Source: a bacterium
GTDB lineage: Bacteria; Patescibacteriota; Minisyncoccia; 2-02-FULL-40-12; IGHO2-12-FULL-4
Assembly: GCA_030647955.1 (NCBI GenBank)
Contig: JAUSIQ010000004.1
Coordinates: forward strand, 1-36,532
Length of the DNA stretch: 36,532 nucleotides
Direction of reading: 5' to 3'
The position numbers were made by a program, and so were the translations under genes. Shown here piece by piece: positions 17,163 through 35,135 of the stretch. The stretch's first letter is position 1. Each line of letters opens with the position of its first letter. The notes under the pieces were generated by a model, which made no database searches, was not told the DNA's origin, and worked only from the letters and a program-made list of their open reading frames with translations.

Positions 17163-19055
17163 ATGGCCAAAAGAGGATTGCGCTTAGACAAGGATTTTCC
17201 GGTGGTGAAGCCTTCTAGTTCTCAATGGGGCATTCTAGATATTTTGCATGAAACTAATGCGGATAGGGTATGTTTAGCTGCGCGCTCGGCGGGTTTTAAA
17301 GGTGATACGGACATTCTATTGGCTGCTCCCTTGCCCTCCCCGGTCTCTCCTCAACAGAACGAAGCATTAGGATTGTTTTATATCGGAGAGTCCGCGCGAC
17401 GATTTGGCTTCCGCGTAGAGTACTGGGACGCTCGGCATGAGCATGAAGAAGTTTTCTGGAAAAAATTAGCTTCAGCTAATACGGTTGGATTTACAGCTAT
17501 TACGGGTTATCAGCTTTCAGAATTTGTACGTTTAGCAGAATTGGTCAAAAAGCGCTATCCAAATATGCCAGTTATTTTGGGCGGAGCGCATGCCACTCTA
17601 ACTAAGCCGGAAGTTAATCTAGCCGATCCGCTAGTGGATTTTGTGGTCCTGGGAGAAGGAGAGTTGCGTCTGCCAGCTTTGCTGTACAGTTTTTATACCG
17701 GAGAAGGGATGAAGCTGGTAGATGGGATTGGCTATAGAACCGAAGATGGAGAATTTATTATCAATCCTAGCGTGCATGTTCCTGATCCGGCGAAAGGGCA
17801 TTTAGTGCGTGCGGTTTCACCTTGGACGATGCCATATTTCAAAGCCGCAGCGGCGCGCAACGAGATGATCTTGCCAACTAGTCGTGGCTGTCCGTGGTCA
17901 ACTGATTCTTGCGATTTTTGCAGTGTCGGAAAACAGTATCTAGATTCCTACCGTGGCTTTCCCTTTGAGTTGTGGAGAGATGATATTCTGGCCGTGCATA
18001 AAGAGGTGCGGGTAAGGCACATCGAGCCGGAAGATGAAAACTCGGCTTTAGCTATTTTGGAGGCACAACCGTATCTCCCGTTTCTAAAAGAACTGGGAGC
18101 TTCCTCTCATCTACATTTGCGATCGGATCAGCTTTTGGATGCTCAGCGGGTAAAATGGTTGGCAAAAATGGGAGTAGTGCGAGTTCATATCGGAGTGGAG
18201 TCGGGTAATGAGCGGGTGCTGAATCAGGTGATGCATAAAAATGAGCATGTCGAGGATCACTTCGTGGCGGCCCGCAATCTCGCCACTGCGGGTATCGAAA
18301 TGGTCGGGACTTATATCGTGGCCAACCCGACCGAAAATTGGGAAGAGATTAAACAGACTTTGGACTTGGCCGAAGATTTATCGAAGGTTTTTCCAAAAGG
18401 GGGATACCGAGCCACGATTTATGTGCTAGCGGCTCTCCCTGGTACACCCATTTTCTATACCATCGAGCGTATGCAGGAGTTCAATGCACGATTAGAAGAG
18501 CGAGGCGACTTAAAAGAACTAGCCGCTTGGTATAAGCTCCCCGTGAAAGCAGAGGAAAGAATAAAGCTAGACCCTCAATTACAGGTTTGGGGGAAGGGTC
18601 AAGAACGGCATCCCAAAGTAGCGGATACGGTACAGGAGGTGCTGGGTAAATTTTTGATCGGACAGGAAGGTTTGGGGCGATTAAAAGAAGAAACCCATAA
18701 GTGGTTGTGGCCGACCCCGACGACTTTACGAGGCTGGACGCAGGTCTCCGCGGCCTATAATCCCTACTTACCAAAGGAGTGGAATGCGATTTATCCCATT
18801 GCGGGAATGCATCACAATAAATTTCATAAGAGTCCGCAAAATTTTCCAGGATGGAAGCGAATTTTGATTAAACCCTTTGAATGGTTGAGCGATGTTCGTT
18901 ATCGCCATCATTTCTTTAAGTATGCCGCTTTTGAACTCTGGTTGCTCGAGCATCTTTTGCGGTGGGCATCAAAGCGTTCGGTGGGTAAAAATTTGGATGA
19001 AGTCCACCGGCGCAAATTTATGGAATCGTACTCCGAAACATTAGCTGGACATTAA
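17163..19055 (+). CDS. Cobalamin-binding-domain radical SAM protein with CX6CX2C
   Basis: A 630-residue protein with a B12-binding-like N-terminal domain (about 50-200: LGLFYIGESARRFGFRVEYW, ANTVGFTAITGYQLSEFVRL, MPVILGGAHATL, FVVLGEGE), then a radical SAM barrel. The cluster motif is SRGCPWSTDSCDFCSVG, Cys243, Cys250 and Cys253, that is CX6CX2C rather than the usual CX3CX2C. Barrel landmarks HIGVESGNERVLNQVMHK and GTYIVANPTENWEEI follow. B12-type radical SAM enzymes often methylate unactivated carbon or rearrange rings. ATG 17163 has a good SD; the frame opens earlier at 17016. The C-terminal 200 residues are not recognised. A terminator overlaps the stop. It stands alone, divergent from the SDR operon. 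Confidence 0.8.
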   Translation: MAKRGLRLDKDFPVVKPSSSQWGILDILHETNADRVCLAARSAGFKGDTDILLAAPLPSPVSPQQNEALGLFYIGESARRFGFRVEYWDARHEHEEVFWKKLASANTVGFTAITGYQLSEFVRLAELVKKRYPNMPVILGGAHATLTKPEVNLADPLVDFVVLGEGELRLPALLYSFYTGEGMKLVDGIGYRTEDGEFIINPSVHVPDPAKGHLVRAVSPWTMPYFKAAAARNEMILPTSRGCPWSTDSCDFCSVGKQYLDSYRGFPFELWRDDILAVHKEVRVRHIEPEDENSALAILEAQPYLPFLKELGASSHLHLRSDQLLDAQRVKWLAKMGVVRVHIGVESGNERVLNQVMHKNEHVEDHFVAARNLATAGIEMVGTYIVANPTENWEEIKQTLDLAEDLSKVFPKGGYRATIYVLAALPGTPIFYTIERMQEFNARLEERGDLKELAAWYKLPVKAEERIKLDPQLQVWGKGQERHPKVADTVQEVLGKFLIGQEGLGRLKEETHKWLWPTPTTLRGWTQVSAAYNPYLPKEWNAIYPIAGMHHNKFHKSPQNFPGWKRILIKPFEWLSDVRYRHHFFKYAAFELWLLEHLLRWASKRSVGKNLDEVHRRKFMESYSETLAGH

Positions 19056-19080
19056 AGACTTGTTTTGACAAGTCTTTTTT
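19054..19080 (+). terminator. Rho-independent terminator of the radical SAM gene
   Basis: AAAGACTTG (19054-19062), loop TTTTGA, CAAGTCTTT (19069-19077) and a T-run. The stem includes the last two bases of the TAA stop codon. It separates the radical SAM gene from the heptose kinase gene that begins 30 bases later. Confidence 0.85.
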
Positions 19081-19097
19081 ATTTTCGATTCAACGCG

Positions 19098-19103
19098 TAT
19101 AAT
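19098..19103 (+). promoter_or_regulatory. Consensus -10 box six bases before the heptose kinase ATG (leaderless)
   Basis: A perfect TATAAT at 19098-19103 is followed by six bases and the ATG at 19110, so transcription should begin at the start codon. No good -35 lies 16-18 bases upstream (that place is the terminator T-run). No SD is present. Confidence 0.55.
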
Positions 19104-19109
19104 GCCAGC

Positions 19110-20135
19110 ATGATATTGGCTAGAGCTCCAATGCGCATAAGTTTTGTGGGGGGCGGAACTGATCTTCCCGATTTTTATCGTCGCTCACCGGGGCGAGTGA
19201 TTTCGACGGCCATCAATCAGTTTGTTTCGATTGTGGTTCATCGTACGCCTTATGTCGATAAAATTTCGGCGCGCTACTCTCTCTCTGAAACAGTCGATCG
19301 GCCCCATGATTTAGAGCATCCTATTATTCGGGCGGCTTTATTAGACCTTGGTATTAATAAGGGAATTGAGATTGCTTCTTTCGGTAGCTTATCGGCTAAA
19401 ATGGGTCTGGGTTCTTCTTCTAGTTTTTCGGTGGCCCTGCTCAAAGGCCTTCATGCTTTTCAGGGTAAAAAGCTCGATCGTGCAGAGGTTGCCGAAGCGG
19501 CTTGTCGCCTGGAGATCGATCTACTTAATCAGCCCATCGGCAAACAAGATCAATACGCAGCCGCTTTCGGTGGCTTTAATATCTTTCAGTTCAATCCTGA
19601 TGGAACTGTGGATGTAGAGCCTATTCTACTGGATTACCAAAAAAGATCCGCCCTAGAAAAACACATTTTACTTTTCTTCACAGGACTAACCCGCTCTGCG
19701 GCCGCGGTGCTTTCGGAACAGCGCTCCAATATAGACGCGAAGTTCGGTACTCTGCAAAAGATGGCGGAATCTGTTTATGAATTTAAAGAACAACTATTAA
19801 AAGGAAACTGGCCGGTCTTAGGGGCGATGCTTCACGAAGGCTGGCAGCAAAAAAGAAGTCTGGCCTCTACCATTTCTAATTCGGTTATCGATCAGCTTTA
19901 TTTAAAAGGAATGGAAGCGGGAGCGTGGGGTGGAAAGGTCTTGGGAGCAGGAGGAGGGGGGTGCGTTATGTTCTTAGCAGATCCTGAGCGCCAAGAATAC
20001 ATTAAGCAGGCAGTGTCGGTCGTGGCTCGCGATAATCATTTAGAAGATTTTCGGCATATTTCGGTTAAGTTTGTTCAATCCGGAGCGGAAGTATTATTTA
20101 ATGGCGATGGGCATTTTAATTCCCACCTAATTTAA
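19110..20135 (+). CDS. hddA: GHMP kinase, D-glycero-D-manno-heptose 7-phosphate kinase (HddA-like)
   Basis: A 341-residue GHMP kinase. It opens ILARAPMRISFVGGGTDLPD, has the ATP loop KMGLGSSSSFSVALLKGLHA (GLGSSSS at 99-105), IGKQDQYAAAFGGFN, and the third motif WGGKVLGAGGGGCVMFLAD. These match the HddA group, which phosphorylates D-glycero-D-manno-heptose 7-phosphate at C1 to the alpha-1,7-bisphosphate, the second step toward GDP-D,D-heptose. The partner isomerase gene overlaps its stop by one base (TAATG), which strongly supports the role. ATG 19110 was chosen over an in-frame ATG at 19065 because the latter lies in the terminator and the family starts here. L-fucose kinase-like relatives are a less likely reading. 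Confidence 0.85.
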   Translation: MILARAPMRISFVGGGTDLPDFYRRSPGRVISTAINQFVSIVVHRTPYVDKISARYSLSETVDRPHDLEHPIIRAALLDLGINKGIEIASFGSLSAKMGLGSSSSFSVALLKGLHAFQGKKLDRAEVAEAACRLEIDLLNQPIGKQDQYAAAFGGFNIFQFNPDGTVDVEPILLDYQKRSALEKHILLFFTGLTRSAAAVLSEQRSNIDAKFGTLQKMAESVYEFKEQLLKGNWPVLGAMLHEGWQQKRSLASTISNSVIDQLYLKGMEAGAWGGKVLGAGGGGCVMFLADPERQEYIKQAVSVVARDNHLEDFRHISVKFVQSGAEVLFNGDGHFNSHLI

Positions 20136-20722
20136 TGGAAGAGTATATTCAAAAATTTTCTAATAAAGTTATTGCCGCGATCGAAAATTTACCTAAGCGA
20201 GAGATATCTAAAGCCTTAAATATTTTGCAGGCCGTCTATGAGCGAGATGGGCGTATCTATGTTTTTGGTAATGGTGGTTCCTTGGCGTTGGCCACACATT
20301 GGGTGAGCGATTTTAATAAGACCGTTTTTAGTCATCACCTTAGTAAAACGGTGCGGCGCTTTCAGGCGATTCGATTACCAACCACTGAAGAAGAGCTCAC
20401 CGCCTGGGCTAACGATGTCGGCTTTGAAATGGTTTTCGCTGGACCGTTGCAAAACTATTTACAGGATTCAGATGTGGTTATTGCTATTTCTAGCTCCGGC
20501 CAATCCCCCAATGTTATTAAAGCCGTAGAGTTGGCCAAGAAAAATAAAATTCCGATTATTGGGTTGTCGGGGTTTGATGGTGGAAAGTTGAACACCTTAG
20601 CGGACGCGAAGATTTTTGTCTCGACCGAAAAAGGGGAGTACGAAATAGTCGAGGGGGTGCACGCGGTTATTTTGCACATGCTCACTAAATACTTCCAGGA
20701 CTACTTTGACCACCTGGAGTGA
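20135..20722 (+). CDS. gmhA: SIS-domain sedoheptulose-7-phosphate isomerase (GmhA-like)
   Basis: A 195-residue SIS-domain protein. The phosphosugar-binding parts are VFGNGGSLALATHWVSDFNK, VVIAISSSGQSPNVIKAVEL and IPIIGLSGFDGGKLNTLADA, in the order found in GmhA. The reaction expected is sedoheptulose 7-phosphate to D-glycero-D-manno-heptose 7-phosphate, the first step of bacterial heptose synthesis. The start codon shares a base with the stop of the HddA-like kinase, so the two are translationally coupled. The C-terminus reads EKGEYEIVEGVHAVILHMLT, where the E...H helix holds usual active-site residues. Another SIS isomerase function is possible, but the kinase next to it makes GmhA by far the best reading. 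The gene ends two bases before the convergent GT2 gene. Confidence 0.83.
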   Translation: MEEYIQKFSNKVIAAIENLPKREISKALNILQAVYERDGRIYVFGNGGSLALATHWVSDFNKTVFSHHLSKTVRRFQAIRLPTTEEELTAWANDVGFEMVFAGPLQNYLQDSDVVIAISSSGQSPNVIKAVELAKKNKIPIIGLSGFDGGKLNTLADAKIFVSTEKGEYEIVEGVHAVILHMLTKYFQDYFDHLE

Positions 20723-20724
20723 AT

Positions 20725-21645
20725 TTAAAATAATTTCTTCTTAATAAACCAACGCGTGCTGGTTTTTATTTTTTGACGGTAATCCCGATTAATAATGGAA
20801 GAGTCTGGGGGCGTTGGATGGGAGTGATCCATAAAAGATTTTCGGAATTTTTGTAGATTTTTTAGCGCTCGTAGAAAAGTACCGATACGATCTGCTTTTC
20901 CTTTTAAGGCCTGGTCCAAGTTTGTAAACTCCTCATCGGAAAGGGATAAAAAACTTTGCCAATATCTTTTTCGGATCAGAAAACTGCTCTGTTGAGTTTC
21001 GCTGGAAAGACGGACGGTGGTGGACTGGGGATAGAAGCGATAGAGTAGGTAAGACTCTGCTAAGTTAGCGAAACGGATTTGTTTAATTAAGCGTGCCCAA
21101 AGCCAATAATCTTCTGATAAAAATTCGGTGGTGTAGGTTTCTTTTTGCAGAACTTCTTTACGGATCATCACGCTGGGATGGGCCATCGGATTTTTGAATG
21201 CCATGGTCCAGGCGATAAGGTGGTGAGTGGTGGGCAGGGCTAACAAATCAAGTTTCTCTCCGTGCTCGTTAATTTTTTGAGCCTGAGTGCCGACCGCCCC
21301 AATGTCCGGATGTTGCTCTAAAAATTGCACCTGCTTTTCAAATCGGTTCGGTAAACTGATGTCATCACCATCCATACGGGCTATATATTGTCCTTGAGCA
21401 GCTTTAATTCCCGTATTTAAAGAAGGAACAATGCCGTGACCTTCGTGGTGCTGGAGGTGCCGTAAACGAGGATCAGCGAAGCTGGCGATGGTTTTAAAAT
21501 CTTCGGGATCGCCGTCACTTTCGGTAACTACAAGCAATTCAAAGTCAGTGAAAGTTTGTTGGAGAATACTTTCGATGGCCAAACTCAAATAGCGTCCGCA
21601 ATGAAAGACCGGCATGATCACAGAAATTTTCGGAGCGTTACTCAT
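20725..21645 (-). CDS. Glycosyltransferase family 2 (GT-A)
   Basis: A 306-residue GT2 enzyme: SVIMPVFHCGRYLSLAIESI, LQQTFTDFELLVV, GIVPSLNTGIKAAQGQYIAR and the metal-binding MDGDD, followed by RFEKQVQFLEQHPDIGAVGT and a later FLSEDYWLWARL, the usual acceptor-side ED motif. It should transfer a sugar from a nucleotide donor to the lipid-linked glycan. The basic and aromatic C-terminus (WFIKKKLF) may touch the membrane. It overlaps the upstream 4-epimerase-like gene by four bases (ATGA), so these two are co-translated. No terminator was seen at its end, which almost abuts the end of the isomerase gene on the other strand. Confidence 0.88.
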   Translation of the reverse strand: MSNAPKISVIMPVFHCGRYLSLAIESILQQTFTDFELLVVTESDGDPEDFKTIASFADPRLRHLQHHEGHGIVPSLNTGIKAAQGQYIARMDGDDISLPNRFEKQVQFLEQHPDIGAVGTQAQKINEHGEKLDLLALPTTHHLIAWTMAFKNPMAHPSVMIRKEVLQKETYTTEFLSEDYWLWARLIKQIRFANLAESYLLYRFYPQSTTVRLSSETQQSSFLIRKRYWQSFLSLSDEEFTNLDQALKGKADRIGTFLRALKNLQKFRKSFMDHSHPTPPDSSIINRDYRQKIKTSTRWFIKKKLF

Positions 21646-22580
21646 AGGTTAGCCAGGACCGCTTTTTTGATTGCTTCAGTGGAAGAATATTTTGCCTTCC
21701 AATGCAGGGCATGGACCCTCTTTAAATTATAAGAGTATTTTGGTACGTCTCCAATCCAACCCTTACTTCCGCCGGTGTAAACGATTTTAGGAGCAATTTT
21801 CATGGTCTTGATGACAATGGCGGCAATCTTTTTGACAGTGATGCGATCGTGGACTCCAATATTGGCACAATTAATCTTTTGATGAGTATGTTTTACGAAA
21901 TGGGTGATGCCTTCGATAAGATCTTGAACGTGAATATAGGGTTTGCTTTGTTGGCCATCACCTAAAATCTCTAAAGTTTTGGGATTATTTTTCAGTTTTT
22001 TTATAAAATCGAATATCACTCCATGCGTAGCCCGGCCTCCAACAACATTGGCAAAGCGCACGATCCAGACCTGCAGGTTAAAAGCTTCGGCGTAGGCCGA
22101 GAGGTAGCCTTCGGCGGCTAATTTACTTGCCCCATAAAACGAAATGGGTAAAAATGGCCCAGTATCTTCGTCTAGGGGTTTGGAACTAGGCTGGTAAACC
22201 GCGGAGCTCGAAGCGAAAACTATTTTTCGACAAGAGGAGGTGGTCATCGCCTCCAAAATGGAATAAGTAGTTTCAAAATTTAATTCTAAATCTAGTCGGC
22301 GATTTTTTAATCCCCGCCCAATATCCGAATTAGCGGCGAGGTGGTAAACGATGGAAAAATTTTCTTTGACGAATAATTTTTTGGTTTTACTTGTGTTGCG
22401 GAGGTCAACTTTAACAAAAGAGAAGTTGGGATGCGGATCGAGGTGTTTAATATTCTGCCATCGGCCCAAATAAAAATTGTCGGCGACGGTTATATGATGT
22501 CCTTGAGCAATGAGGTGGTCGGCCAGATGAGAACCGATAAATCCGGCTCCACCAGCGATGAGAATATTTTCTTTAGGCAT
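21642..22580 (-). CDS. Extended SDR, UDP-glucose 4-epimerase-like
   Basis: A 312-residue extended SDR: NILIAGGAGFIGSHLADHLI (NAD binding), VYHLAANSDIGRGLKN, FASSSAVYQPSSKPLDEDTG (active-site Ser region), FYGASKLAAEGYL (Tyr and Lys), IVRFANVVGGRATHGVIFDF and GDGQQSKPYIHVQDLI. The pattern is that of GalE-like and related NDP-sugar epimerases; a dehydratase usually has an acid pair after the Thr that is not seen here. The usual product would be an epimerised UDP-sugar. A terminator-shaped hairpin ends one base before its ATG; a promoter candidate lies just upstream of that hairpin. It forms a two-gene unit with the GT2 gene. Confidence 0.82.
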   Translation of the reverse strand: MPKENILIAGGAGFIGSHLADHLIAQGHHITVADNFYLGRWQNIKHLDPHPNFSFVKVDLRNTSKTKKLFVKENFSIVYHLAANSDIGRGLKNRRLDLELNFETTYSILEAMTTSSCRKIVFASSSAVYQPSSKPLDEDTGPFLPISFYGASKLAAEGYLSAYAEAFNLQVWIVRFANVVGGRATHGVIFDFIKKLKNNPKTLEILGDGQQSKPYIHVQDLIEGITHFVKHTHQKINCANIGVHDRITVKKIAAIVIKTMKIAPKIVYTGGSKGWIGDVPKYSYNLKRVHALHWKAKYSSTEAIKKAVLANL

Positions 22581-22606: not shown

Positions 22607-22635
22607 ATTGTCACATTCTAGGAAGTTTTGGTCAA
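22607..22635 (-). promoter_or_regulatory. Predicted promoter of the 4-epimerase/GT2 unit, upstream of the terminator hairpin
   Basis: On the minus strand a -35 TTGACC (22630-22635), 17-base spacer and -10 GACAAT (22607-22612) preceded by TGT (extended -10). RNA would begin near 22600, so it would lack the 5' arm of the terminator and escape it. Confidence 0.4.
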
Positions 22636-23349
22636 GGGAATGATAAGTCCTTGCTCATAATCAGTGGTAACTTGGGAGTACCGTTCCTCTGTTCCCATGT
22701 CTTTAATATATTCCGGAGTATTATAAGCCATCAGCTTCTTTCCTTTTTCCAGGGCAGAAACCAGTCCGTCCTTTTCAAGACTAGATTTACCGTCAGGTAG
22801 AAAATCAATAATTTGAGGGGATAGAATGTAAATTCCCGCATTACCGATGTTTGGATATTCACTCGGAACACGATTACTTTTGGAATACCAGCTCACCACC
22901 CTACCTTGGGGGTTAACTTCCATCAAGTCGCTATCATGAGGATGGGAACTGGGATGGACCACCAAAGTAGCCGAAGGACTATGAAGCCGGTGGAAAGTGA
23001 TTAAAGATTGTAAATTCATCCCAATCATAATATCCCCATTCAATAGGAGAAAATCTTCGGTCAGTTCCGGAGCTAATATTTTAATAGCTCCGCCCGTACC
23101 CAGAGGAGTTTCTTCGTGGGAGTAAGTAATCTTCACCCCCCATTGTTCGCCGGTGCCGCAATAATTCCAGATGTCTCCCGATCCATAGCCGGTCGATAAG
23201 ATGATCTCAGTTAAGCTGTGGCGCTTCAGTAATAAAATTTGATGTTCGAGAACGGGCTTATCGCCGATGGGTACGAGGGGTTTGGGTAGCCCCCGGCTAA
23301 TATTTTTCAACCTAGTTCCTTCTCCGCCCGTTAAAATGACTGTTTTCAT
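22618..23349 (-). CDS. Sugar-1-phosphate nucleotidyltransferase (candidate HddC)
   Basis: A 243-residue NTP_transferase: MKTVILTGGEGTRLKNISRG with LPKPLVPIGDKPVLEHQI (nucleotide loop), GTGGAIK, LLNGDIMIGMNL (metal-binding Asp), IGNAGIYILSPQII, LEKDGL and YIKDMGTEERYSQV. The last phrase is typical of HddC and RmlA/ManC relatives and of HddC-phosphatase fusions. With the heptose isomerase and kinase in the same window, the best guess is guanylyltransfer to D-glycero-alpha-D-manno-heptose 1-phosphate. Glucose- or mannose-1-phosphate is also possible. ATG 23349 was chosen over an upstream in-frame start because AGGAG lies seven bases before it. It follows the GDP-mannose-epimerase-like gene by eight bases. 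Confidence 0.78.
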   Translation of the reverse strand: MKTVILTGGEGTRLKNISRGLPKPLVPIGDKPVLEHQILLLKRHSLTEIILSTGYGSGDIWNYCGTGEQWGVKITYSHEETPLGTGGAIKILAPELTEDFLLLNGDIMIGMNLQSLITFHRLHSPSATLVVHPSSHPHDSDLMEVNPQGRVVSWYSKSNRVPSEYPNIGNAGIYILSPQIIDFLPDGKSSLEKDGLVSALEKGKKLMAYNTPEYIKDMGTEERYSQVTTDYEQGLIIPLTKTS

Positions 23350-23357
23350 GTTCTCTC

Positions 23358-24338
23358 CTACGGCTGCGCAATCATCTGATCGTAAATCCATTGGTAAGTT
23401 GTTTCTAGGCCCATAGTTAATTTAGTGGACGGTTCCCAGTTAAAAAGAGATTTGATCAGAGCATTGTCGCTATTGCGTCCTCGTACGCTAAGGGGAGCGG
23501 AGGGATTGTAATTTCTTTTCAATTTAATGCCAGCAATATTTTCTGCGATAGTGACCAGTTGGTTAACGGTGACTAACTCGCTACTTCCGATATTAAGCGG
23601 TTCGCTAAAATCACTATGCATCAGCAATTCCATTGCTATCAGGCAGTCGTCGATGTGGGTGAAGCTGCGAGTTTGCTCTCCGTCCCCCTCGATTTTGATC
23701 TCATGTTTGCCGGAAATCTTAGCCTCGATTACTTTGCGGCAGATAGCCGCGGGGGCTTTTTCGTGTCCTCCGTTCCAGGTACCATAAGGACCATAAACAT
23801 TGTGGAATCTGGCAATACGTACCGGTACTCCAAAGTCATCGCGATAATCCATGCAGTGTTGTTCGCTAAATAACTTCTCCCAGCCGCATCTTTTTTCCGG
23901 TTCGGCGGGGATGGCATCGCTTTCTCTGAGAGCGATGACGTTAGTGTTAGTCTGCTTTTCGGCTGGATAAACACAGGCCGAGGAGGCATAGAAATACCGC
24001 TCTAATCGAGCATAAGACTGGGCTGCTAATAACAAGTGAGCATTGATAAGCACTGATCTGGAGCAGAGCGCGCGATTTTTTTCGATAAAGCCCATGCCGC
24101 TCATGTTGCAGGCCAGATTGTAAACTACCTGAGCTTGGTTAACGGCTGCGCCGCAGCTGTTCCATTTCTGGAGATCGAGTTGATGATTGTTTAGTTCGGG
24201 AAAAAATCGAAACCACTCTCTAAAAGGCTTAATGTCAACTGCTCTAACCAGATTACTCGGATCCTGCCTGAGTTTAGCGACAAGATGTCCGCCGATAAAT
24301 CCACCAGCACCGCACACTACGATTAACTTTTTGGCCAT
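23358..24338 (-). CDS. GDP-mannose 3,5-epimerase-like extended SDR, catalytic Tyr replaced by Cys
   Basis: A 326-residue extended SDR that follows plant GDP-mannose 3,5-epimerase (GME) closely from memory: CGAGGFIGGHL, YNLACNMSGMGFIEKN, FYASSACVYP, ESDAIPAEP, ARFHNVYGPYGTWNGGHEKA with PAAICRK, GDGEQTRSFTHIDD and VRGRNSDN. Cys122 and Lys194 correspond to the acid/base pair of GME (plant Cys145 and Lys217). The redox Tyr of YxxxK is Cys151 (codon TGC, RCGWEK), with Lys155 kept. GME makes GDP-L-galactose and GDP-L-gulose from GDP-mannose by oxidation, epimerisation and reduction; losing the Tyr could impair the redox steps. ATG 24338 has SD AAGGAAG at ideal spacing, and a promoter precedes it. 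Confidence 0.8.
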   Translation of the reverse strand: MAKKLIVVCGAGGFIGGHLVAKLRQDPSNLVRAVDIKPFREWFRFFPELNNHQLDLQKWNSCGAAVNQAQVVYNLACNMSGMGFIEKNRALCSRSVLINAHLLLAAQSYARLERYFYASSACVYPAEKQTNTNVIALRESDAIPAEPEKRCGWEKLFSEQHCMDYRDDFGVPVRIARFHNVYGPYGTWNGGHEKAPAAICRKVIEAKISGKHEIKIEGDGEQTRSFTHIDDCLIAMELLMHSDFSEPLNIGSSELVTVNQLVTIAENIAGIKLKRNYNPSAPLSVRGRNSDNALIKSLFNWEPSTKLTMGLETTYQWIYDQMIAQP

Positions 24339-27221: not shown

Positions 27222-27250
27222 AATGAAAAACCCTTGAAAAATCAAGGGTT
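27222..27250 (-). terminator. Rho-independent terminator of the SDR at 27242
   Basis: On the minus strand AACCCTTGA (27250-27242), four-base loop, TCAAGGGTT (27237-27229), then a T-rich tract TTTTTCATTTC. The stem includes the TGA stop codon of the upstream SDR. Confidence 0.83.
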
Positions 27251-28261
27251 GTTAAAAATATCCCACCGCTTATTGGTTTCGTGGCGGTGTTTATCGTACC
27301 AGTGCATCGTTTCTCTTAAGCCATCTTCCAGACTAACTAATGGTTTCCATCCTAAACCTTGGGCACGGCTGGTATCTAGTACTCTGGCTTGGTCGCCTCG
27401 CGGTTTGGAAGTATCCCATGTTATTTCCGGATGGTGGCCGGAAAGTCGTATAATGGTTTCGGCTAATTCTCGAATAGAGGTGCTTCTTCCGCTACCAATA
27501 TTAACCGGTAGGCCCGGATTGGTTTCGGCTACCAAGAGCATCCCCTTGGCTACATCTTCCGTGTAGATGAAATCCCTGACGGCTGAACCGTTCCCCCAGA
27601 TGACCAAAGGATCTTCATTGCTAACCACGCGCTTGATTAAGGCGGGGACAACCATGGAATTAGAAGAATCAAAATTATCGTAAGGACCATAAACGGTGGC
27701 TGGTCTGACAATATTGATGTTTTGCCATCCGTACTGCTTCTCATACAGTTCAGCTTGCAATTCTCCCATACGCTTGACCCAACCGGCTGCTTTATCATGT
27801 TCCGATGGGGGCTTTTGCCAAGCTTCGTCTTCTAGGAAGGTTGGAGCTGGTCCGTATACTCCGAGGGTGCTGGTAAATAGAAATCCTTCCGTTTCGCATC
27901 TTTTAGCTGCTTCCAATAACTGGGTGTTAAAAATCATCATATTGTAGAAGACTGTGGCGGGACTGGCGGCCATGGCGGCTGGGGAACCCTTTACACACAA
28001 AAGATTAAAAACATAATCAATATCTTGGCATGCCCATAGGCAGTTATCCAGAATAGTAAGATCGGTGCGTAAAAATTCCGCTTCGGGGTGGGTGCGGGAA
28101 GGATCATCCAGAGAGGCGATCCGTACCACAGCTCCTTTTTTTAGGAGTAGTTTTACCAGGGGGATACCGATCAAACCGGTTCCCCCTGCCACCAATACTT
28201 TTTTACCTTCGAAAGAATACGGATTTCTAAAATGATCAGTTTTCAACGGACTTGATGCCAT
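27242..28261 (-). CDS. Extended SDR (NDP-sugar epimerase/dehydratase)
   Basis: A 339-residue extended SDR: KKVLVAGGTGLIGIPLVKLL (NAD-binding), YVFNLLCVKGSPAAMAASPA, FLFTSTLGVYGPAPTF (Ser/Thr active-site region), SEHDKAAGWVKRMGELQAEL, NIVRPATVYGPYDNFDSSNS and WGNGSAVRDFIYTEDVAKGM. The usual YxxxK site is hard to place: the expected segment reads AGWVKRMGE, so Trp seems to stand where the Tyr is expected. It overlaps the radical SAM gene at 28236 by 26 bases; ATG 28261 has SD AGGAG nine bases upstream, whereas the upstream in-frame ATG at 28348 lies inside that gene. The sugar substrate is not known. A terminator overlaps its stop. Confidence 0.78.
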   Translation of the reverse strand: MASSPLKTDHFRNPYSFEGKKVLVAGGTGLIGIPLVKLLLKKGAVVRIASLDDPSRTHPEAEFLRTDLTILDNCLWACQDIDYVFNLLCVKGSPAAMAASPATVFYNMMIFNTQLLEAAKRCETEGFLFTSTLGVYGPAPTFLEDEAWQKPPSEHDKAAGWVKRMGELQAELYEKQYGWQNINIVRPATVYGPYDNFDSSNSMVVPALIKRVVSNEDPLVIWGNGSAVRDFIYTEDVAKGMLLVAETNPGLPVNIGSGRSTSIRELAETIIRLSGHHPEITWDTSKPRGDQARVLDTSRAQGLGWKPLVSLEDGLRETMHWYDKHRHETNKRWDIFNNP

Positions 28262-30299
28262 AAAGATACGCTCCTCTTCGGTTGCACCACCAAACCATCT
28301 TTTCGTACCACTCTTCCCAAGATAACCATTTTTCATTGGTTCTATCAATAAGGTAGGTGCGAGATTGTCTTTGGAGGTCGATCGGTTGGCCTAGCATGAT
28401 CGAGCGGTAAAATTCCCAGACATTATTATGGAGTGTCAGTTTTATATCTTCTGTTTGGAAAGGTAACTTTATCAGGTGTTTATTGAGGGCCAAGGCGTCT
28501 ATAAGCAAGGAATGCTCAGGCTCAGTAATCACGCCCTTCTCGGCTAGGAAAGCTTTTAATACTCTTTCCGCTTCTTCATAGAACCGGCCTAATTTTTCTT
28601 TTCGGCAGAGTTCAATAAAGACGTACTCCTCCGGAGGCCAGAAGATATCCAAATACTTCTCGGCATGGATAAATTCCTCTTGGCCAGCTTGAATATTAAG
28701 CGCCGCTTGGGTAAATAAATTGTGAACTTCACGCAGGGTGTCAAATTCTTCTCTTGAGGACGCCAGAGCTTCAAACTGGCCATCGGAAAATAGCTCAATC
28801 ATTTCACGATAGGAGAGGCCATAAACTTCATGCAAAACAAGCATAGGAAGTTGCAGTAATTTGTTGAAGTACAATAGCCCGGTCATCCAGCTGAAGACTC
28901 GAGTTCGCACCCAAGCGGTCGGCGGCATCGTATTGGTGGCCACAATGAGCTCTTGCCACTCATCGATACCATCAAGGGTTTCCAGTTTTTTTCCGTGAAT
29001 ATTAATGATCCTACTCTTCACTAATTTCATGTCATATTCTTCTTGATATTCAGGATCACCCATTTCGGCATTGGGCATGTTAGACAAGTTATTGAATTGA
29101 ATGCGGTTGTGTTGGCCTTGGTCGATCAAGTGGTCGACTCCGGCCGCAAATGTATCGTAGGTTTCTTCGGGCATGCCCAGAATCATGTCTGACATCGTAA
29201 AGACTCCCTGGGCGGCCAGGCGTTTCTGAATACTGTAGTAAAGGTCCATCTCCATATTATCGCGGCGGACTGCTTTGAGGGTGGCCGGATTGAGAGATTG
29301 AATGGACATTACCGTGGCCTTGTTCAAGCCGGCTTTTTCCAAAACCTCCAATGCTTCCACGGTGTGATCTTTAGGGTTTTTGGCATTTTGGACGGAAATT
29401 CCTTCTGGATAGCCCGTGTGCATCTTGACCTCGGCAAACTTTCGCGCAATAGCGACGTCGCGTTTCAAGATTCCAAAATTGGCGTTAGCCAGAAAGTGGT
29501 AAGGGATTTTTTTGGAGGCGATCCATTCGATGGTTTTGAAAACATCATCGAGGTCAAACTGGGCTATTTTGTCTTCAACTGCTCCGCCCCAGTCGCAATA
29601 GGTACATTGATACGGACATCCCCGGTCAGTTTCCCACATGGCGATCCAGCGTTGATCCGGGTAGCGATCCAGGAGCTGATCAAAAGCTCCGGCGGCAAAC
29701 GGAAGTGGCACTTTTGATAAGTCAAAAACGCGGGGAGCGCGAAAATTTTGAAAGAAATGTCCATGCGGGTCGGTGTAACTGATAGAGGGAATGTCCTTTT
29801 TATCTCGACAACCATCGACCAGCATTCTTTGTAGAATAGTAGTAAAAACGGTTTCGCCCTCACCATGGCAAGCCATATCAACAAAGGGACAATCCTGGTG
29901 AAATTTTTTGGTGATTCCGATACGCTTTGGTCTCAAATCGGTCAGTTCCGGAGCGCTCTTTCTGATTCTGGTGAACTGCTTCATCTGATCTGGCACATGT
30001 GGTCCGCCAAAAACAATAACGGTTTCGGGCTTTTGTCTCTTGAGTTCGGTGGCGATAGCCTTGGAAATTTCAAAGTTCCATACATATGTGCTGAACCCGA
30101 CAATATCCGCCTCTACTAAAGAGGCAACGGTTGATGCTACTGAGGTCCTCTTGTAAATCGGCACCATAAATTCATAATTTTGGGGCTGATCCAGATTCGT
30201 TTGGGCATAAGACTGCAGAATTCCGACCGAGTAAGGTAGATAACACTGGCCCGAAAACTCGTTGTTAACCTGCACTAAGCCGACTTTAATCTTTGGCAT
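28236..30299 (-). CDS. Cobalamin-binding-domain radical SAM protein (canonical CX3CX2C)
   Basis: A 687-residue protein. The N-terminal B12-binding-like domain (about 1-160) reads LPYSVGILQSYAQTNL, ADIVGFSTYVWNFEISKAIA, VIVFGGPHVPDQ and MACHGEGETVF. The radical SAM motif is RGCPYQCTYCDWGG, with Cys228, Cys232 and Cys235, then FLANANFGILKRDVAIARKF, VMSIQSLNPATLKAVRRDNM and MSDMILGMPEETYDTF. Proteins of this type methylate or rearrange substrates at unreactive carbons. The 250-residue C-terminal extension is helical and not recognised. ATG 30299 has the SD AGGAG. It is co-transcribed with the SDR that overlaps its end, which points to a sugar-nucleotide or glycan substrate. Confidence 0.83.
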   Translation of the reverse strand: MPKIKVGLVQVNNEFSGQCYLPYSVGILQSYAQTNLDQPQNYEFMVPIYKRTSVASTVASLVEADIVGFSTYVWNFEISKAIATELKRQKPETVIVFGGPHVPDQMKQFTRIRKSAPELTDLRPKRIGITKKFHQDCPFVDMACHGEGETVFTTILQRMLVDGCRDKKDIPSISYTDPHGHFFQNFRAPRVFDLSKVPLPFAAGAFDQLLDRYPDQRWIAMWETDRGCPYQCTYCDWGGAVEDKIAQFDLDDVFKTIEWIASKKIPYHFLANANFGILKRDVAIARKFAEVKMHTGYPEGISVQNAKNPKDHTVEALEVLEKAGLNKATVMSIQSLNPATLKAVRRDNMEMDLYYSIQKRLAAQGVFTMSDMILGMPEETYDTFAAGVDHLIDQGQHNRIQFNNLSNMPNAEMGDPEYQEEYDMKLVKSRIINIHGKKLETLDGIDEWQELIVATNTMPPTAWVRTRVFSWMTGLLYFNKLLQLPMLVLHEVYGLSYREMIELFSDGQFEALASSREEFDTLREVHNLFTQAALNIQAGQEEFIHAEKYLDIFWPPEEYVFIELCRKEKLGRFYEEAERVLKAFLAEKGVITEPEHSLLIDALALNKHLIKLPFQTEDIKLTLHNNVWEFYRSIMLGQPIDLQRQSRTYLIDRTNEKWLSWEEWYEKMVWWCNRRGAYLYGIKSVEN

Positions 30300-30363: not shown

Positions 30364-30370
30364 TAAAAGC

Positions 30371-30403: not shown

Positions 30404-30432
30404 ATGATGAACCTTCCTTAGCAGATCTCTTT

Positions 30433-31497
30433 TTAGACGCTAAATGTTATGAATCCTGACCAATGGTTTGGCGCAATCATTTTTTTGTCACTTAAGTTGA
30501 GAGTTTGAAAGAATTGTTCAATATGAGATACGCTGTATTTAATAACAGCATTAAGTGGAGGCAGGTGTTTTTTGAGCGGCAAATCTTTTCTATATAATCT
30601 AGCTATGTCGGTAATATTCTTTGGTGGTCTAATTAATTTTGGTTTATTTTGATTGTTCTGTCTCGGCTTGAGCAATAAGCCGACATGGCACGGTTTATAA
30701 AAAAAATCTTCCACAATCTCAAGTCCTCCAAGTTCCGCCAGGTAAGTTAGGTGTTCTTTTGAGAAATTACTTTTATGAGTAAGATATAAAGCATCACTCC
30801 AGCTCACATAATTCCAGATGGTCGGCACTTCCAGATACAAAAGACCGGAGTTCGGATTAAGAAGATTTTTAATTCTTTTTATTACGGTAACTGGATTATC
30901 AATATGTTCAAGACATGCGGAGAAAATGATAACATCATAACGTCTTTTTTGACGGACAAATGTTTCAATAGAGTCGGCTACTACTTTTATCCCCCACTTT
31001 TTTCTTAAGTAGTTGGTTTTGTTTATTTCTGGTTCAACTGCTTCAACTCGGAAACCTTTCTCCCGAAATAAGTTTGTTCCTGTGCCAAAAGCCGCTCCCA
31101 CGTCAAGAAGGTGCCCCGTTTTTCTATATCTTGATATTGCTTCGTAATATTTTTCGTAACGAGCGATTCTGTCCAACTCTACCTCGGGATTAAAAACCTC
31201 CGGTACGGCAGTCTCTATTATTTGCCAGCATTTTTTAAACCATTTTAATCCCGGGCTGACTGATCTAAATGTAAATAAGCAACTGACACAGGTTACTGTG
31301 GAAAAAAAATTCAGTTGGCCATTTATGTAAACTTCAGTCAACAATCGGAGATCTTTCGACAGACACACTGGGCATCGCGATATTATCAGAAGATCATTTT
31401 TTTCAATTTCATATACCCTTGGATTTTCTTTCTTTTCTTTTAATTTTTTTAAGGTACTCTTTTTTTGCTCATCTAAATAATGTGCAGCGTCATTCAT
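30433..31497 (-). CDS. Class I SAM methyltransferase with N-terminal zinc-ribbon-like region
   Basis: A 354-residue protein. After a charged N-terminus come CPVC and CVSC (a CX2C pair about 30 residues apart, zinc-binding in look), then LLDVGAAFGTGTNLFREKGF (SAM binding), RVEAVEPEINK, YDVIIFSACLEHIDNPVTVI and NPNSGLLYLEVPTIWNYVSW. This Methyltransf_23 style, CX2C pair included, occurs in many glycan clusters. It lacks the Methyltransf_14 domain and the YHEH motif of the C-methyltransferases, so O- or N-methylation is likelier. ATG 31497 follows the SD AAAGGG; an in-frame ATG at 31563 falls inside the predicted promoter. It stands as a single-gene unit with its own promoter and terminator. Confidence 0.78.
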   Translation of the reverse strand: MNDAAHYLDEQKKSTLKKLKEKKENPRVYEIEKNDLLIISRCPVCLSKDLRLLTEVYINGQLNFFSTVTCVSCLFTFRSVSPGLKWFKKCWQIIETAVPEVFNPEVELDRIARYEKYYEAISRYRKTGHLLDVGAAFGTGTNLFREKGFRVEAVEPEINKTNYLRKKWGIKVVADSIETFVRQKRRYDVIIFSACLEHIDNPVTVIKRIKNLLNPNSGLLYLEVPTIWNYVSWSDALYLTHKSNFSKEHLTYLAELGGLEIVEDFFYKPCHVGLLLKPRQNNQNKPKLIRPPKNITDIARLYRKDLPLKKHLPPLNAVIKYSVSHIEQFFQTLNLSDKKMIAPNHWSGFITFSV

Positions 31498-31534
31498 GAA
31501 TTTTACCCTTTCTGTCACCCCGTTGTTTAGAGGG

Positions 31535-31563
31535 AGTTTACAACAGTTTAATTCTGAATTCAA
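31535..31563 (-). promoter_or_regulatory. Predicted promoter of the zinc-ribbon methyltransferase
   Basis: On the minus strand a -35 TTGAAT (31558-31563), 17-base spacer and -10 TAAACT (31535-31540); the leader would be about 30 bases and include the SD AAAGGG. Confidence 0.45.
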
Positions 31564-31581
31564 GCCCCCATATTCTTAATG

Positions 31582-31608
31582 AAAACCCCCGCTTTGGCGG
31601 GGTTTTTT
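31582..31608. terminator. Bidirectional-looking terminator after the HemN-like gene
   Basis: CCCCGC (31587-31592), loop TTTG, GCGGGG (31597-31602), flanked by AAAA on the left and TTTTTT on the right, so it would work on either strand. Its job here is on the minus strand, ending the HemN-like transcript about 55 bases after that stop. Confidence 0.85.
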
Positions 31609-31661
31609 GTAAAAGAAATTAAGAAGGTGAAACATGTATTACAATTGAATAAGTGGGGGGA

Positions 31662-33059
31662 TTAAAATCGGGGTCGGCTTTTCTTGTATGCATCAAAAAC
31701 ATAACAGATGGTATTGGTAAATTGATGTCCTTTTTCGGTGACAATGATCGCTCGATTCTTGATTTCTACCAGTTCATCTTTGATATAACTATCCAATGAA
31801 GCCAATTCTTCCTTAAAATAATTTTCAAAATTAATGCCATATTTAGCATCTATGCCTTCGAAACCTATAGAGAAGAAACTCCGTAAGGTTTGGATTACAT
31901 CCCGTCTCATTAGATCATCTTGGTTTTGTTTGTGGCCGCGGAATATCGGAAACAACCCTTGCTCCAGAGCTTCCTGATATTTTTGAACATCGTAGAAATT
32001 CTGAAAATAGTAATTACCGAGAGTGCTGTAACTATGGACTCCCACGCTAAGAATACTATCATATCTTCCTGCCGTCACTCCTAGAGCATTCCAATGCATC
32101 TTGCCATCGGCCATAGCTCTCGCCACAGAATCAGTCGGCTTAGCAAAATGATCATATCCGGTGCGGACGTAACCGCCTTGGGTTAATGTTTCCAAGGCTA
32201 CGGCAAAGAGCTCCTTGCGTTCATAATAATCTGGTAAACGATCGGGTCTTCCATGTTTTCCATCAGACATAAGACTCTGGTGTTTTGTGAAGTGCGGAGC
32301 CAGATGAAGATAATTGAGACAAATACGATCTGGGGAAAGACGGACACATTCCGCAGCTGTCCTTCTAATGGTCTCCTTGGTTTGATGGGGTAGGCCGCAG
32401 ATAATGTCAAAATTTACGCCATTAGAAAAAAGATCATCGGTCTCGTTGCTCATGAGATCTTCCACTAATTTAATGGGCTGTACTCTATTTATGGCTCCTT
32501 GAACTTTTGGATCAAAATCCTGAATACCCATAGAGATTCTGTTTATACCCTTATCGTGGTAATACCTAAGCATCTCTCTGGTGGTATGCCTTGGATCTAT
32601 TTCGATAGAAAATTCACTCAGATTCTCCATATTTACTATTGACCCCAAATTTTCTACTAAGCAATCGAAATCAGGTATAGTTAAATCTGTCGGAGAGCCA
32701 CCACCTAAATGTATCTCCGTAAAATTCGGAGTCAGAGAATGCTGATTAAAGAATTCTCGCAATAGACGAATTTCTGAATAAAGCATCCCAAGATAATTTT
32801 TTCTCTTATTCTGGTCTTTGGTAATTTCTCCAATATGACAAGTACAAAACCAGCAAAGTTCTGTGCAATAGAGAATGTGGACATATAGCAAAAGGGGAGT
32901 GGTCGGTTCGTTAGTCAGTAGTTCTAGTAAGGCTGAACGATAGTCTTTGTCTCCGACGCTAGTTGACCAAAAGCTCTTATGCGGATATTCAGTATACATA
33001 AAGGCATTGGTTATCTGCAGAATGTTAGGATCTACATGATTTAGCATTTGCAACCTCAT
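31662..33059 (-). CDS. HemN-like radical SAM protein (oxygen-independent coproporphyrinogen III oxidase family)
   Basis: A 465-residue protein that follows E. coli HemN along most of its length. It has LLLYVHILYCTELCWFCTCH, the CX3CX2CXC motif of the family (Cys65, 69, 72, 74), HLGGGSPTDL, EIDPRHTTREML, RISMGIQDFDPKVQGAINR, LPHQT, DHFAKPTDSVARA and a C-terminal RRDVIQTLRSFF with FENYFKEELASL and TEKGHQFTNTICYVFDAY. HemN decarboxylates coproporphyrinogen III in haem synthesis. No other tetrapyrrole gene is visible here, so it could be a true HemN, or a relative with another substrate. The start follows an extended -10 promoter with a short leader lacking an SD. Confidence 0.8.
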   Translation of the reverse strand: MRLQMLNHVDPNILQITNAFMYTEYPHKSFWSTSVGDKDYRSALLELLTNEPTTPLLLYVHILYCTELCWFCTCHIGEITKDQNKRKNYLGMLYSEIRLLREFFNQHSLTPNFTEIHLGGGSPTDLTIPDFDCLVENLGSIVNMENLSEFSIEIDPRHTTREMLRYYHDKGINRISMGIQDFDPKVQGAINRVQPIKLVEDLMSNETDDLFSNGVNFDIICGLPHQTKETIRRTAAECVRLSPDRICLNYLHLAPHFTKHQSLMSDGKHGRPDRLPDYYERKELFAVALETLTQGGYVRTGYDHFAKPTDSVARAMADGKMHWNALGVTAGRYDSILSVGVHSYSTLGNYYFQNFYDVQKYQEALEQGLFPIFRGHKQNQDDLMRRDVIQTLRSFFSIGFEGIDAKYGINFENYFKEELASLDSYIKDELVEIKNRAIIVTEKGHQFTNTICYVFDAYKKSRPRF

Positions 33060-33078
33060 TTTTAAAAAACTTTAAACT

Positions 33079-33107
33079 ATTATACCAAATAAACCACCTC
33101 GCAGCAA
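33079..33107 (-). promoter_or_regulatory. Predicted promoter of the HemN-like gene
   Basis: On the minus strand a -35 TTGCTG (33102-33107), 17-base spacer and a perfect -10 TATAAT (33079-33084) preceded by TGG (extended -10). The -35 lies inside a hairpin (33097-33116). The leader would be about 13 bases without an SD. Confidence 0.6.
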
Positions 33108-33218
33108 GCTGCGAGGTAGCATAAGAGTCTAAGACTCTTATGCCCCGATGCGGAGCATCGGGGTGTTAACCCTTTTAGCTTCGCTCGGACAAAATGTAAG
33201 ATAAAAATCTTCCATTTT
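33097..33218. repeat. Array of four hairpins in the HemN-like/radical SAM spacer
   Basis: Four hairpins follow one another: CCTCGCAGC-AA-GCTGCGAGG (33097-33116); GCATAAGAGTCT-A-AGACTCTTATGC (33119-33143); CCCCGATGC-GGA-GCATCGGGG (33143-33163); and AAAATGTAAGAT-AAAA-ATCTTCCATTTT (33191-33218, one mismatch). None has a good T-run. No gene is seen in this spacer. Confidence 0.7.
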
Positions 33219-33231
33219 GCTCCTCGCTCAG

Positions 33232-33258
33232 TAAAATAAAAAGACGCTGTCCAGCGCC
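33232..33258 (-). terminator. Rho-independent terminator of the third B12-type radical SAM gene
   Basis: On the minus strand GGCGCTG (33258-33252), loop GA, CAGCGTC (33249-33243) with one G-T pair, then CTTTTTATTTTA. The stem begins at the stop codon of the radical SAM gene. Confidence 0.75.
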
Positions 33259-35135
33259 TAGTTTAAATTTATTTTATTTTGTAGTTCTTCAATCAATTTA
33301 TCCAAGCCTAGTATCGGAAATCTCTTTCGCCAATAGTCATTTCCTGTCGCATATTTCCTAGCTAGGCCCAAGCGATAGTCGGCTTGCTCTGTGTTTTTAA
33401 GTTTAAATTCCAGAAGAGCGAAGAATAGATTGCCCAGAGCATTTTCTTTGTGGGTTTTATCACACATATTGACGAATAGTTTGTGGAGCATATTTATTTT
33501 AATCGGATCTTCAAGCTTCCAAAGTTTCTCATAGTTAACCATATAATCCATTACAAACCAGATATCGATTAGCTCACTTCGTTTGGGGATTCTGTCCAGA
33601 TTTTCTCCGCAAAGATGGTTTATGAAGGGTAGAGCTTTTGCTTTCTCTTCCCCGCTTCTTCGATCTTGCTTGCCAGTTGATCCCACTACCGGTCTTTCCG
33701 ACCCATCTAGCAGCTCTTGTTTTGTTATGGTTCCTTGGGCCAAGGCATGATTGGTCATATCAACACCGGGGATGAAATTAAGGGGTTGAATTGTATACCA
33801 ATCTAAATCCATTTGCTTGGCAACATTTATAGTGTCCCAGATCATCTTTATTGATTCGCCGGGAAAATTTCTTTCTGGCTCGGGAGGGAAACCAACCATC
33901 AGTAATCCCTTAGTGAATATCTTGGGATATTTTTTCATTATTTCTCCGGCTCGGAGGTAGTGTTTAACGCCACTTGGCTTAGGTATGTTTCTAAGTACCT
34001 CTGGATTGCCAGACTCAATGCCAAAGCTCAAAGCGATACAGCCTGATTCGGCAGCGGCATGAGCAATTTCCTCGGTCAGTGCTGAGGCGATAACTCCGTT
34101 AGAGGCATCCCAGGTGATGTTTAATTTTCTTTTTGTCCAGCCTTCGAAAAGAGCGATCGTTCTTTTTTCCCCATTCAGTAAATCATCATCTAGCATCATC
34201 ACATGGCTGATTCCGTATTTATCTCTTTTTCTTTCAAGTTCATCTAAAACAATATCTATGTCTCGTTTTAATACTATGCCTCGACCATTAAACTCATCAA
34301 CGGAACAAAATCTGCAATGAGCTCGACAGCCTCTATTAATGAGAACTGTTCCTGCTCTCGTCCCCGGAGGGAATAACCAGTAAAAAGTTCCGATTCTTCC
34401 AATGGAACTATATTTTTCGATCAGCAAGTCATGAAAATTAGGAGCGATATTTAGGGTTTCTGTTTTTGGTTCTGCCCTCTTTGTAATAGCCGTGTAGCGG
34501 CCATCAATGAGGGTGGCAATTTGAGTAATGTTTTCTGTCCCGATCTTGTTGTTGGCTATATCCAGAAAATGTCCAAAGCTGTCGTTGCCTTCATTGAGGC
34601 ACACAAAATCTATTTCTTTACAATCCTCAAGAACTAGTTGACCCGGAGAGGATTTAATCTCAGCGGAGGCCATCGTGGTATGCACACCACCAGCAACGAC
34701 AACAATATTTGGATTACATTCTTTAACTAATCTGGCAATTCTTACCATCGAACGATGATAGATGGTGAACATACAAGTAACTCCAACCACATCCGGCCGG
34801 AATTCATTCAGTTTTCGCTTTAACCATTCTTCCCAAGCGTTATACCTGAAATTATTAGGATCACTTTTGAAATTATCCTGAATCATAAAATTCAGGTCAA
34901 TAATATCGGTCGTATAGCCCCGTAATTCAATACAAGAAGATATGATACCCAAACCGTAAGGTTCATAAACGGGGTATCTGTTGTCTTTTGCTACACCAGG
35001 ATTCCAATCTTCTTCTGGGACATTGGGTGGCTCAATGAGTAAAATGCGCTGACAGTCCGAAGGAAAAGTCTGCCGTATTTTATTAGCAATTTTTTTAACT
35101 TCCAGATTTACTTCGAGCTGGATTAATTCTGCCAT
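33258..35135 (-). CDS. Cobalamin-binding-domain radical SAM protein (third)
   Basis: A 625-residue protein. The N-terminal B12-binding-like domain has RILLIEPPNVPEEDW, PYGLGIISSCIELRGYTTDI, PDVVGVTCMFTIYHRSMVRI, IVVVAGGVHTTMASAEI and DFVCLNEGNDSF. The cluster motif is INRGCRAHCRFCSVDEFNGR, with Cys270, Cys274 and Cys277, then HVMMLDDDLLNGEKRTIALF, LSFGIESGNPEVLRNIPKPS and LLMVGFPPEPERNFPGESIK. Enzymes of this type do radical methylation or other hard C-H chemistry; the substrate is unknown. ATG 35135 follows AAGGAAGG; the frame continues to 35231, but that would overrun the promoter. It is a single-gene unit with its own promoter and terminator, between the HemN-like and PhyH-like genes. Confidence 0.82.
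   Translation of the reverse strand: MAELIQLEVNLEVKKIANKIRQTFPSDCQRILLIEPPNVPEEDWNPGVAKDNRYPVYEPYGLGIISSCIELRGYTTDIIDLNFMIQDNFKSDPNNFRYNAWEEWLKRKLNEFRPDVVGVTCMFTIYHRSMVRIARLVKECNPNIVVVAGGVHTTMASAEIKSSPGQLVLEDCKEIDFVCLNEGNDSFGHFLDIANNKIGTENITQIATLIDGRYTAITKRAEPKTETLNIAPNFHDLLIEKYSSIGRIGTFYWLFPPGTRAGTVLINRGCRAHCRFCSVDEFNGRGIVLKRDIDIVLDELERKRDKYGISHVMMLDDDLLNGEKRTIALFEGWTKRKLNITWDASNGVIASALTEEIAHAAAESGCIALSFGIESGNPEVLRNIPKPSGVKHYLRAGEIMKKYPKIFTKGLLMVGFPPEPERNFPGESIKMIWDTINVAKQMDLDWYTIQPLNFIPGVDMTNHALAQGTITKQELLDGSERPVVGSTGKQDRRSGEEKAKALPFINHLCGENLDRIPKRSELIDIWFVMDYMVNYEKLWKLEDPIKINMLHKLFVNMCDKTHKENALGNLFFALLEFKLKNTEQADYRLGLARKYATGNDYWRKRFPILGLDKLIEELQNKINLN

Follow-up and report, generated by a model that had tools for sequence, protein, structure and literature searches.

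A conserved gene array on contig JAUSIQ010000004.1 (GenBank assembly GCA_030647955.1) probably encodes a pathway to a 3-deoxy, C-branched and radical-tailored sugar that feeds a surface glycan; we give this reading a probability of about 0.6. The window, that is, the whole stretch of DNA analysed, comprises positions 1-36532 of this 104,265-base contig, which belongs to a genome of 0.943 Mb and 97.8% completeness. We assign the host to the Candidate Phyla Radiation (CPR) by sequence kinship, on the basis that the nearest named relatives of RS3, one of the array proteins, come from Candidatus Yanofskybacteria (71-76% identity). The preliminary description of the window had placed three B12-type radical S-adenosylmethionine (SAM) genes (here RS1, RS2 and RS3), a HemN-like gene and a PhyH-type oxygenase gene in a glycan island; all five genes lie where that description put them, and Pfam bears out these domain assignments, with both a B12-binding and a radical SAM domain in each of RS1, RS2 and RS3 (Table 1).

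The array, whose genes follow one another at short intervals along the minus strand, covers approximately contig positions 27242-48311 and runs beyond the right end of the window. After RS2, the HemN-like gene, RS3 and PhyH, it continues with genes for two short-chain dehydrogenases/reductases (SDR_e and SDR_adh2), a HAD protein, SDR_f, RmlC, a ColD-like protein, a second HAD protein, a cupin, PfpI, the two dehydrogenase E1 subunits (E1beta and E1alpha), a peptidoglycan-binding protein and HddA_b. The PfpI/DJ-1 and cupin-like genes (contig 42100-43433, L008) are paired in 10 of 53 long RS3 loci, the cupin never occurring without PfpI.

Orthologs were called at E <= 1e-100 among 287 related genomes, the host's own included, and were found in 13 genomes for RS2 (12 besides the host), 8 for RS3 and 4 for the HemN-like protein. 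RS2 is present in 7 of the 8 genomes with RS3, and all four genomes with the HemN-like gene also carry RS2 and RS3 (hypergeometric p of 4e-10 for RS2 with RS3, and of 3e-6 and 3e-7 for HemN with RS2 and with RS3, calculated without regard to relatedness). The orthologs of the three genes mostly lie no more than kilobases from one another in these relatives. Gene order is nearly identical in genome G027: HddA, E1, PfpI, cupin, HAD, ColD-like, SDR_f, PhyH, RS3, HemN, SDR_adh2, SDR_e, RS2 and SDR_d.

Scanning GTDB genomes with the RS3 alignment yielded 80 loci, distributed among Nitrospirota, Omnitrophota, Planctomycetota, Pelagibacteraceae, Rhodospirillaceae, Nitrospinota, Marinimicrobia and others. 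The most frequent partners in these 80 loci are E1beta and SDR_f (23 each), E1alpha (21), RS2 and HddA_b (18 each), HemN (17), PhyH and HddC (16 each), and PfpI (14). As controls we used 29 CPR glycan loci with other B12-radical-SAM genes: RS2, HemN, PhyH, E1alpha, E1beta, PfpI, cupin, SDR_e and SDR_f each occur in 11-21 of 63 RS3 loci and in 0 of the 29 controls, with p values of 0.0001 to 0.015, uncorrected for multiple tests. RS3 and HemN are separated by at most 153 bp in 8 loci, on the same strand in 7 of them. SDR_d is found near or adjoining RS2/RS3 orthologs in G027, G038, G044, G077 and G155 and in 18 of the 80 loci, while SDR_e, present in 13, is associated with PhyH and RS2. These results strongly support a conserved pathway and the linkage of the RS2, RS3, HemN and PhyH genes, which in relatives are linked to genes of glycan, SDR and heptose type, as the preliminary description had expected; random occurrence was not seen. 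The window's C-methyltransferase genes, whose conservation with the radical SAM genes it had proposed to check, are not regular partners, being present in only 6 and 2 of the 80 loci. MT23 has a single 43% relative, in G023, and is not a regular partner.

The gene set is carried by SAR11 single cells from the ocean and by the isolate Magnetospirillum sp. UT-4, whose locus L182 has ColD-like, HddA, E1alpha/E1beta and RS3-HemN-RS2-aldo-keto reductase genes in a single run. The tree mixes phyla, with 20 phylum-label changes against a minimum of 13; this pattern fits transfer without proving it, as binning and paralogs could mimic it. In one locus (L170), the RS3 gene is split across two frames, which may be a sequencing error.

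Besides a heptose-type kinase, two key partners lying beyond the window help to narrow down the product. The first is a DegT-family protein whose best PDB match is ColD (187 bits, versus 111 for perosamine synthase). A histidine replaces the lysine that binds pyridoxal phosphate (PLP), in this protein and in each of the 15 distinct relatives that share more than 31% identity with it; an aminotransferase role was rejected in favour of the ColD type on these two grounds. More distant DegT genes in RS3 loci include true lysine types. The second partner is the E1alpha/E1beta pair of dehydrogenase E1 families, fused into a single protein in G027. The thiamine motif of E1alpha is present in 16 of 16 orthologs with a widened pattern and in 5 of 16 with a stricter one. 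AviB1/AviB2 and Pau11/Pau12 are paired E1-like proteins implicated in two-carbon sugar branches, and YerE adds a two-carbon branch to CDP-3,6-dideoxy-4-keto-glucose, a product of the 3-dehydratase branch (PMC4425429, PMC4753412, PMC12247030). By analogy, the E1 pair resembles the AviB1/AviB2 type and may catalyze a branch-forming acyl transfer to a keto sugar. Several relatives carry, beside RS2, an aldo-keto reductase, the family to which the paulomycin ketoreductase Pau7 belongs.

The keto-acid donor may be longer than pyruvate, because an isopropylmalate/homocitrate-synthase-like gene is present in four relatives (L170:5138-6409, L182:3747-4904, L200 and L218). As a core member of the set this gene was rejected, being found in 4 of the 80 loci and in none of the CPR stretches looked at.

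RS2 is placed by its sequence in the KedN5/TokK/CysS group and is probably a C-methyltransferase. Its ortholog profile matches TokK with 461 bits and CysS with 321 bits, and its conserved W74 aligns with Trp76 of TokK, which sits under the cobalt (PMC13331322). With 226 bits against a cut-off of 700 for the KedN5 model NF033712, RS2 falls into a related group outside that subfamily. The CX3CX2C cysteines are invariant in alignments of 13 rows for RS2 and 54 rows for RS3.

Combining these elements, we infer a substrate, an order of steps and what RS3, HemN and PhyH catalyze as follows. GmhA-, HddA- and HddC-like enzymes would activate a heptose or similar phosphate, a 4-keto sugar would be formed by GMD/SDR enzymes, and the ColD-type dehydratase would remove O-3. 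E1alpha/E1beta would then decarboxylate an alpha-keto acid (pyruvate or longer) and attach the resulting acyl unit at the keto carbon to form a C-branched higher sugar comparable to those of avilamycin, paulomycin and yersiniose, which SDRs, and in some relatives also the aldo-keto reductase, would reduce. RS2 would add one or more methyl groups to an unactivated carbon by TokK/CysS-type chemistry, and RS3, the HemN-like enzyme and PhyH may contribute further radical or oxidative tailoring. The preliminary description had proposed radical C-methylation, rearrangement or hydroxylation of a sugar or lipid part of the glycan. Its glycan link stands; the idea was incomplete, as the set extends past the window, and the ColD-type 3-dehydratase and E1alpha/E1beta found there suggest a more specific product.

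Several observations weigh against this pathway. Six genomes have RS2 but no RS3, and one has RS3 but no RS2, which indicates a modular set; the co-occurrence p values ignore phylogeny; and the control loci all come from CPR genomes, unlike the 80 RS3 loci, so that the two sets differ in phylum. The HddA and HddC matches are far below the NCBIfam cut-offs, which leaves room for a sugar other than a heptose. A FecCD-family cobalamin transporter gave only sub-threshold matches, leaving the source of B12 unexplained.

A rival reading is that the radical SAM genes encode independent tailoring enzymes for different sugars, gathered in one island, with RS2, RS3 and HemN not forming one pathway. RS1 and RS4 do belong to other modules, RS2 is also found without RS3, and in CPR glycan loci several such genes, as many as six within about 20 kb, often stand among glycosyltransferases. 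We consider this reading unlikely, however: in different phyla, RS2, RS3, HemN and PhyH reappear together with one recurring set of dehydratase, E1 and SDR genes, in many cases directly adjacent.

The nearest chemical precedents (avilamycin, paulomycin, carbapenems and cystobactamids) are natural products, and the array could in principle make a secreted glycosylated compound instead of a surface polymer. This is improbable in view of the island, which contains a Wzm/Wzt-like ATP-binding cassette (ABC) exporter, Wzx-, WaaL- and WbaP-like genes and many glycosyltransferases; moreover, no polyketide synthase or nonribosomal peptide synthetase domains were found among the scanned window proteins.

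The predicted structure of RS3 (mean predicted local distance difference test score, pLDDT, 92.3) has TsrM, MgmA, OxsB, CysS, AprD4 and TokK as its nearest solved folds. This set spans methylases, a ring-contracting enzyme and a sugar dehydratase, AprD4 being an example of a B12-radical-SAM fold serving sugar dehydration, and for this reason the fold does not fix the reaction of RS3. It is very improbable that RS3 is a P-methyltransferase and the product a phosphinate-bearing glycan: the best NCBIfam models are indeed of that kind (Sden_1168 with 139 bits and PhpK with 103 bits) and PhyH weakly matches methylphosphonate hydroxylase, but the scores are far below the cut-offs of 575 and 600 bits, and phosphoenolpyruvate (PEP) mutase was not found in five of the seven genomes tested (G000, G027, G031, G038 and Magnetospirillum sp. 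UT-4).

The HemN-like protein passes the TIGR00538 hemN model (352 bits, cut-off 325) and does not serve heme synthesis, because HemE and HemB are lacking and the residues aligned with Q311 and I329 of HemN are changed. HemE and HemB were not found in G000, G027, G031 and G155, the four CPR genomes with the HemN-like gene, and HemB was not found in G038 either. At the places aligned with F310, Q311 and I329, residues of the second SAM site of HemN, the protein has NALGVT and Y, whereas three canonical HemN copies have NFQGYT or NFMGYT at the F310/Q311 segment. Canonical copies are encoded elsewhere, besides the locus copy, in G288 (Magnetospirillum sp. UT-4), G293 and G291, and the locus copies mostly branch apart from these canonical ones in the tree, without forming a single clean clade. 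A role as a heme enzyme was consequently rejected, and a scheme in which it acts as a coproporphyrinogen III dehydrogenase while the B12-radical-SAM proteins perform BchE-like tetrapyrrole chemistry, as the hemN score and weak BchE matches might suggest, is hardly credible against the missing HemE and HemB, the changed residues and the separate canonical copies.

The glycan island extends to about 75 kb of the contig and includes the ABC exporter, flippase-, ligase- and WbaP-like genes. The radical SAM genes of the window fall into two units: the RS2/RS3 array and an operon of heptose type with RS1. In the latter, RS1, the HddA-like kinase and the GmhA-like isomerase form one plus-strand run (17163-20722). 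The preliminary description had treated the three B12-type radical SAM proteins as one set; RS2 and RS3 belong together, and RS1 was rejected as a member, its best relative (in G061) being only 28-29% identical and in a different context, with the remaining relatives general RS5-type proteins. An initial genome scan with RS1 as the query found no relative. Its cluster motif is CX6CX2C, three residues longer than the CX3CX2C of 61 of the 62 RS1/RS5-type relatives that were scored.

The B12-radical-SAM genes of the host and related genomes are not randomly scattered. Twenty random stretches of 20 kb, picked blind from the same or related genomes, contained none of them and a mean of 0.3 glycan-type genes, compared with means of 2.1 and 5.4 in 12 stretches around RS2/RS3 orthologs (Mann-Whitney p = 5e-7). 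In 29 stretches around RS1/RS5-type genes, glycan-type genes averaged 4.7; the labels were taken from the window's own island proteins, and these densities are lower bounds. Multiple B12-radical-SAM genes per glycan locus, alternating with glycosyltransferases and methyltransferases, were also seen in other CPR genomes (G107, G060, G123, G180, G218 and G245), and in the CPR loci L041-L048 and L152-L158, with up to six in about 20 kb, they are interleaved with GT4 glycosyltransferases and small methyltransferases. A fourth such gene of the host, RS4, lies in the same island (contig 55512-57278); another contig carries a fifth. RS4 is part of a module (contig 50958-58602, L008/L009) with NeuB-like, NeuA-like, glutamate-semialdehyde-aminotransferase-like, aldo-keto reductase, SDR and sugar isomerase genes, conserved as 52-74% orthologs in G023 (L057) and G035 (L060) and in parts in G155 and G027. 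Three island proteins of 247-347 aa (window 3464-4207, 14153-15115 and 15119-16162) have no Pfam match at E <= 1. The start of RS3 given in the preliminary description and listed in Table 1 fits the ortholog alignment, although the open reading frame (ORF) opens at 35231.

Table 1. Genes of the glycan island, with the matches that support their assignment; window and contig numbering coincide.
Feature	Position	Strand	Evidence
RS1, B12-binding radical SAM protein	17163-19055	+	B12-binding 1.5e-16, Radical_SAM 2.4e-13 (Pfam)
GHMP kinase, HddA-like (heptose 7-phosphate kinase family), adjoins RS1	19065-20135	+	Pfam; NCBIfam HddA 144 bits, cut-off 600
SIS isomerase, GmhA-like	20135-20722	+	Pfam; NCBIfam gmhA 97 bits, cut-off 209
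Sugar-1-phosphate nucleotidyltransferase (mannose-1-P guanylyltransferase/HddC-like)	22618-23391	-	Pfam NTP_transferase 2.7e-33; man1P_GTase and HddC matches below cut-off
SDR_d, NAD-dependent epimerase/dehydratase family, overlaps RS2, upstream start uncertain	27242-28348	-	Pfam
RS2, B12-binding radical SAM protein	28236-30299	-	B12-binding 2.8e-08, Radical_SAM 1.1e-12 (Pfam)
MT23, SAM methyltransferase	30433-31563	-	Pfam
HemN-like radical SAM protein	31662-33059	-	Radical_SAM 6.6e-14; TIGR00538 352 bits, cut-off 325
RS3, B12-binding radical SAM protein, own C-terminal domain	33258-35135	-	B12-binding 1.7e-12, Radical_SAM 3.5e-14
PhyH-type Fe(II)/2-oxoglutarate oxygenase	35354-36154	-	PF05721 6.3e-23, 82.6 bits, gathering score 22
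SDR_e, cut by window end, full ORF to contig 37153	36158-36532	-	Pfam; full ORF in L008
ColD-type 3-dehydratase (DegT protein)	contig 40190-41380	-	ColD 187 bits, best PDB match

Sugar pathways with radical steps have so far come mainly from antibiotics, and searches of the open-access literature turned up no described pathway with this gene set, as the preliminary description had supposed, and nothing relevant on radical SAM enzymes in glycan loci or in CPR bacteria. The array suggests that bacteria make a class of surface sugars chemically unseen so far, here in a reduced CPR genome that lacks a heme pathway and any evident B12 importer yet keeps a B12-radical-SAM pair and a relative of HemN for its surface glycan. 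It also exposes an annotation trap, since a score above the cut-off of the HemN model need not mean a link to heme. More tentatively, and at a little under even odds, the set may represent a widespread new pathway for a 3-deoxy, C-branched, radically C-methylated higher sugar, with a HemN-derived radical SAM enzyme performing a new reaction on a sugar or keto acid, in CPR, SAR11, Nitrospira-like bacteria, Omnitrophota and Magnetospirillum; the isolate makes the pathway directly testable.

Among known systems, RS2 shares with TokK, CysS and KedN5 an alignment spanning the B12 and radical SAM domains, the RGCPYxCTYCDWG motif and the tryptophan under the cobalt, and differs in its C-terminal region and in its sugar context, theirs being a pantetheinyl substrate. 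RS3 combines B12-binding and radical SAM domains in the manner of PhpK, Sden_1168, TsrM, MgmA, OxsB and AprD4; unlike the P-methyltransferases PhpK and Sden_1168, it has its own C-terminal domain, scores above no family cut-off and, in five of the seven genomes tested, lacks an accompanying PEP mutase. The HemN-like protein resembles HemN over its full length (1olt), including CxxxCxxCxC, GGG(S/T)P, E145 and Q172, and departs from it at F310/Q311/I329, in the lack of a heme pathway and in its sugar-gene neighbours. The ColD-like protein has the DegT fold and the histidine in place of the PLP lysine of the ColD/RfbH 3-dehydratases of colitose and 3,6-dideoxyhexoses, but sits with E1 and radical enzymes. 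The E1 pair is alike, at the family level, to AviB1/AviB2 and Pau11/Pau12 in its separate E1alpha/E1beta-like subunits, thiamine motif and sugar cluster, whereas its donor may be a longer keto acid; it stands beside a 3-dehydratase, as in the yersiniose pathway with YerE.

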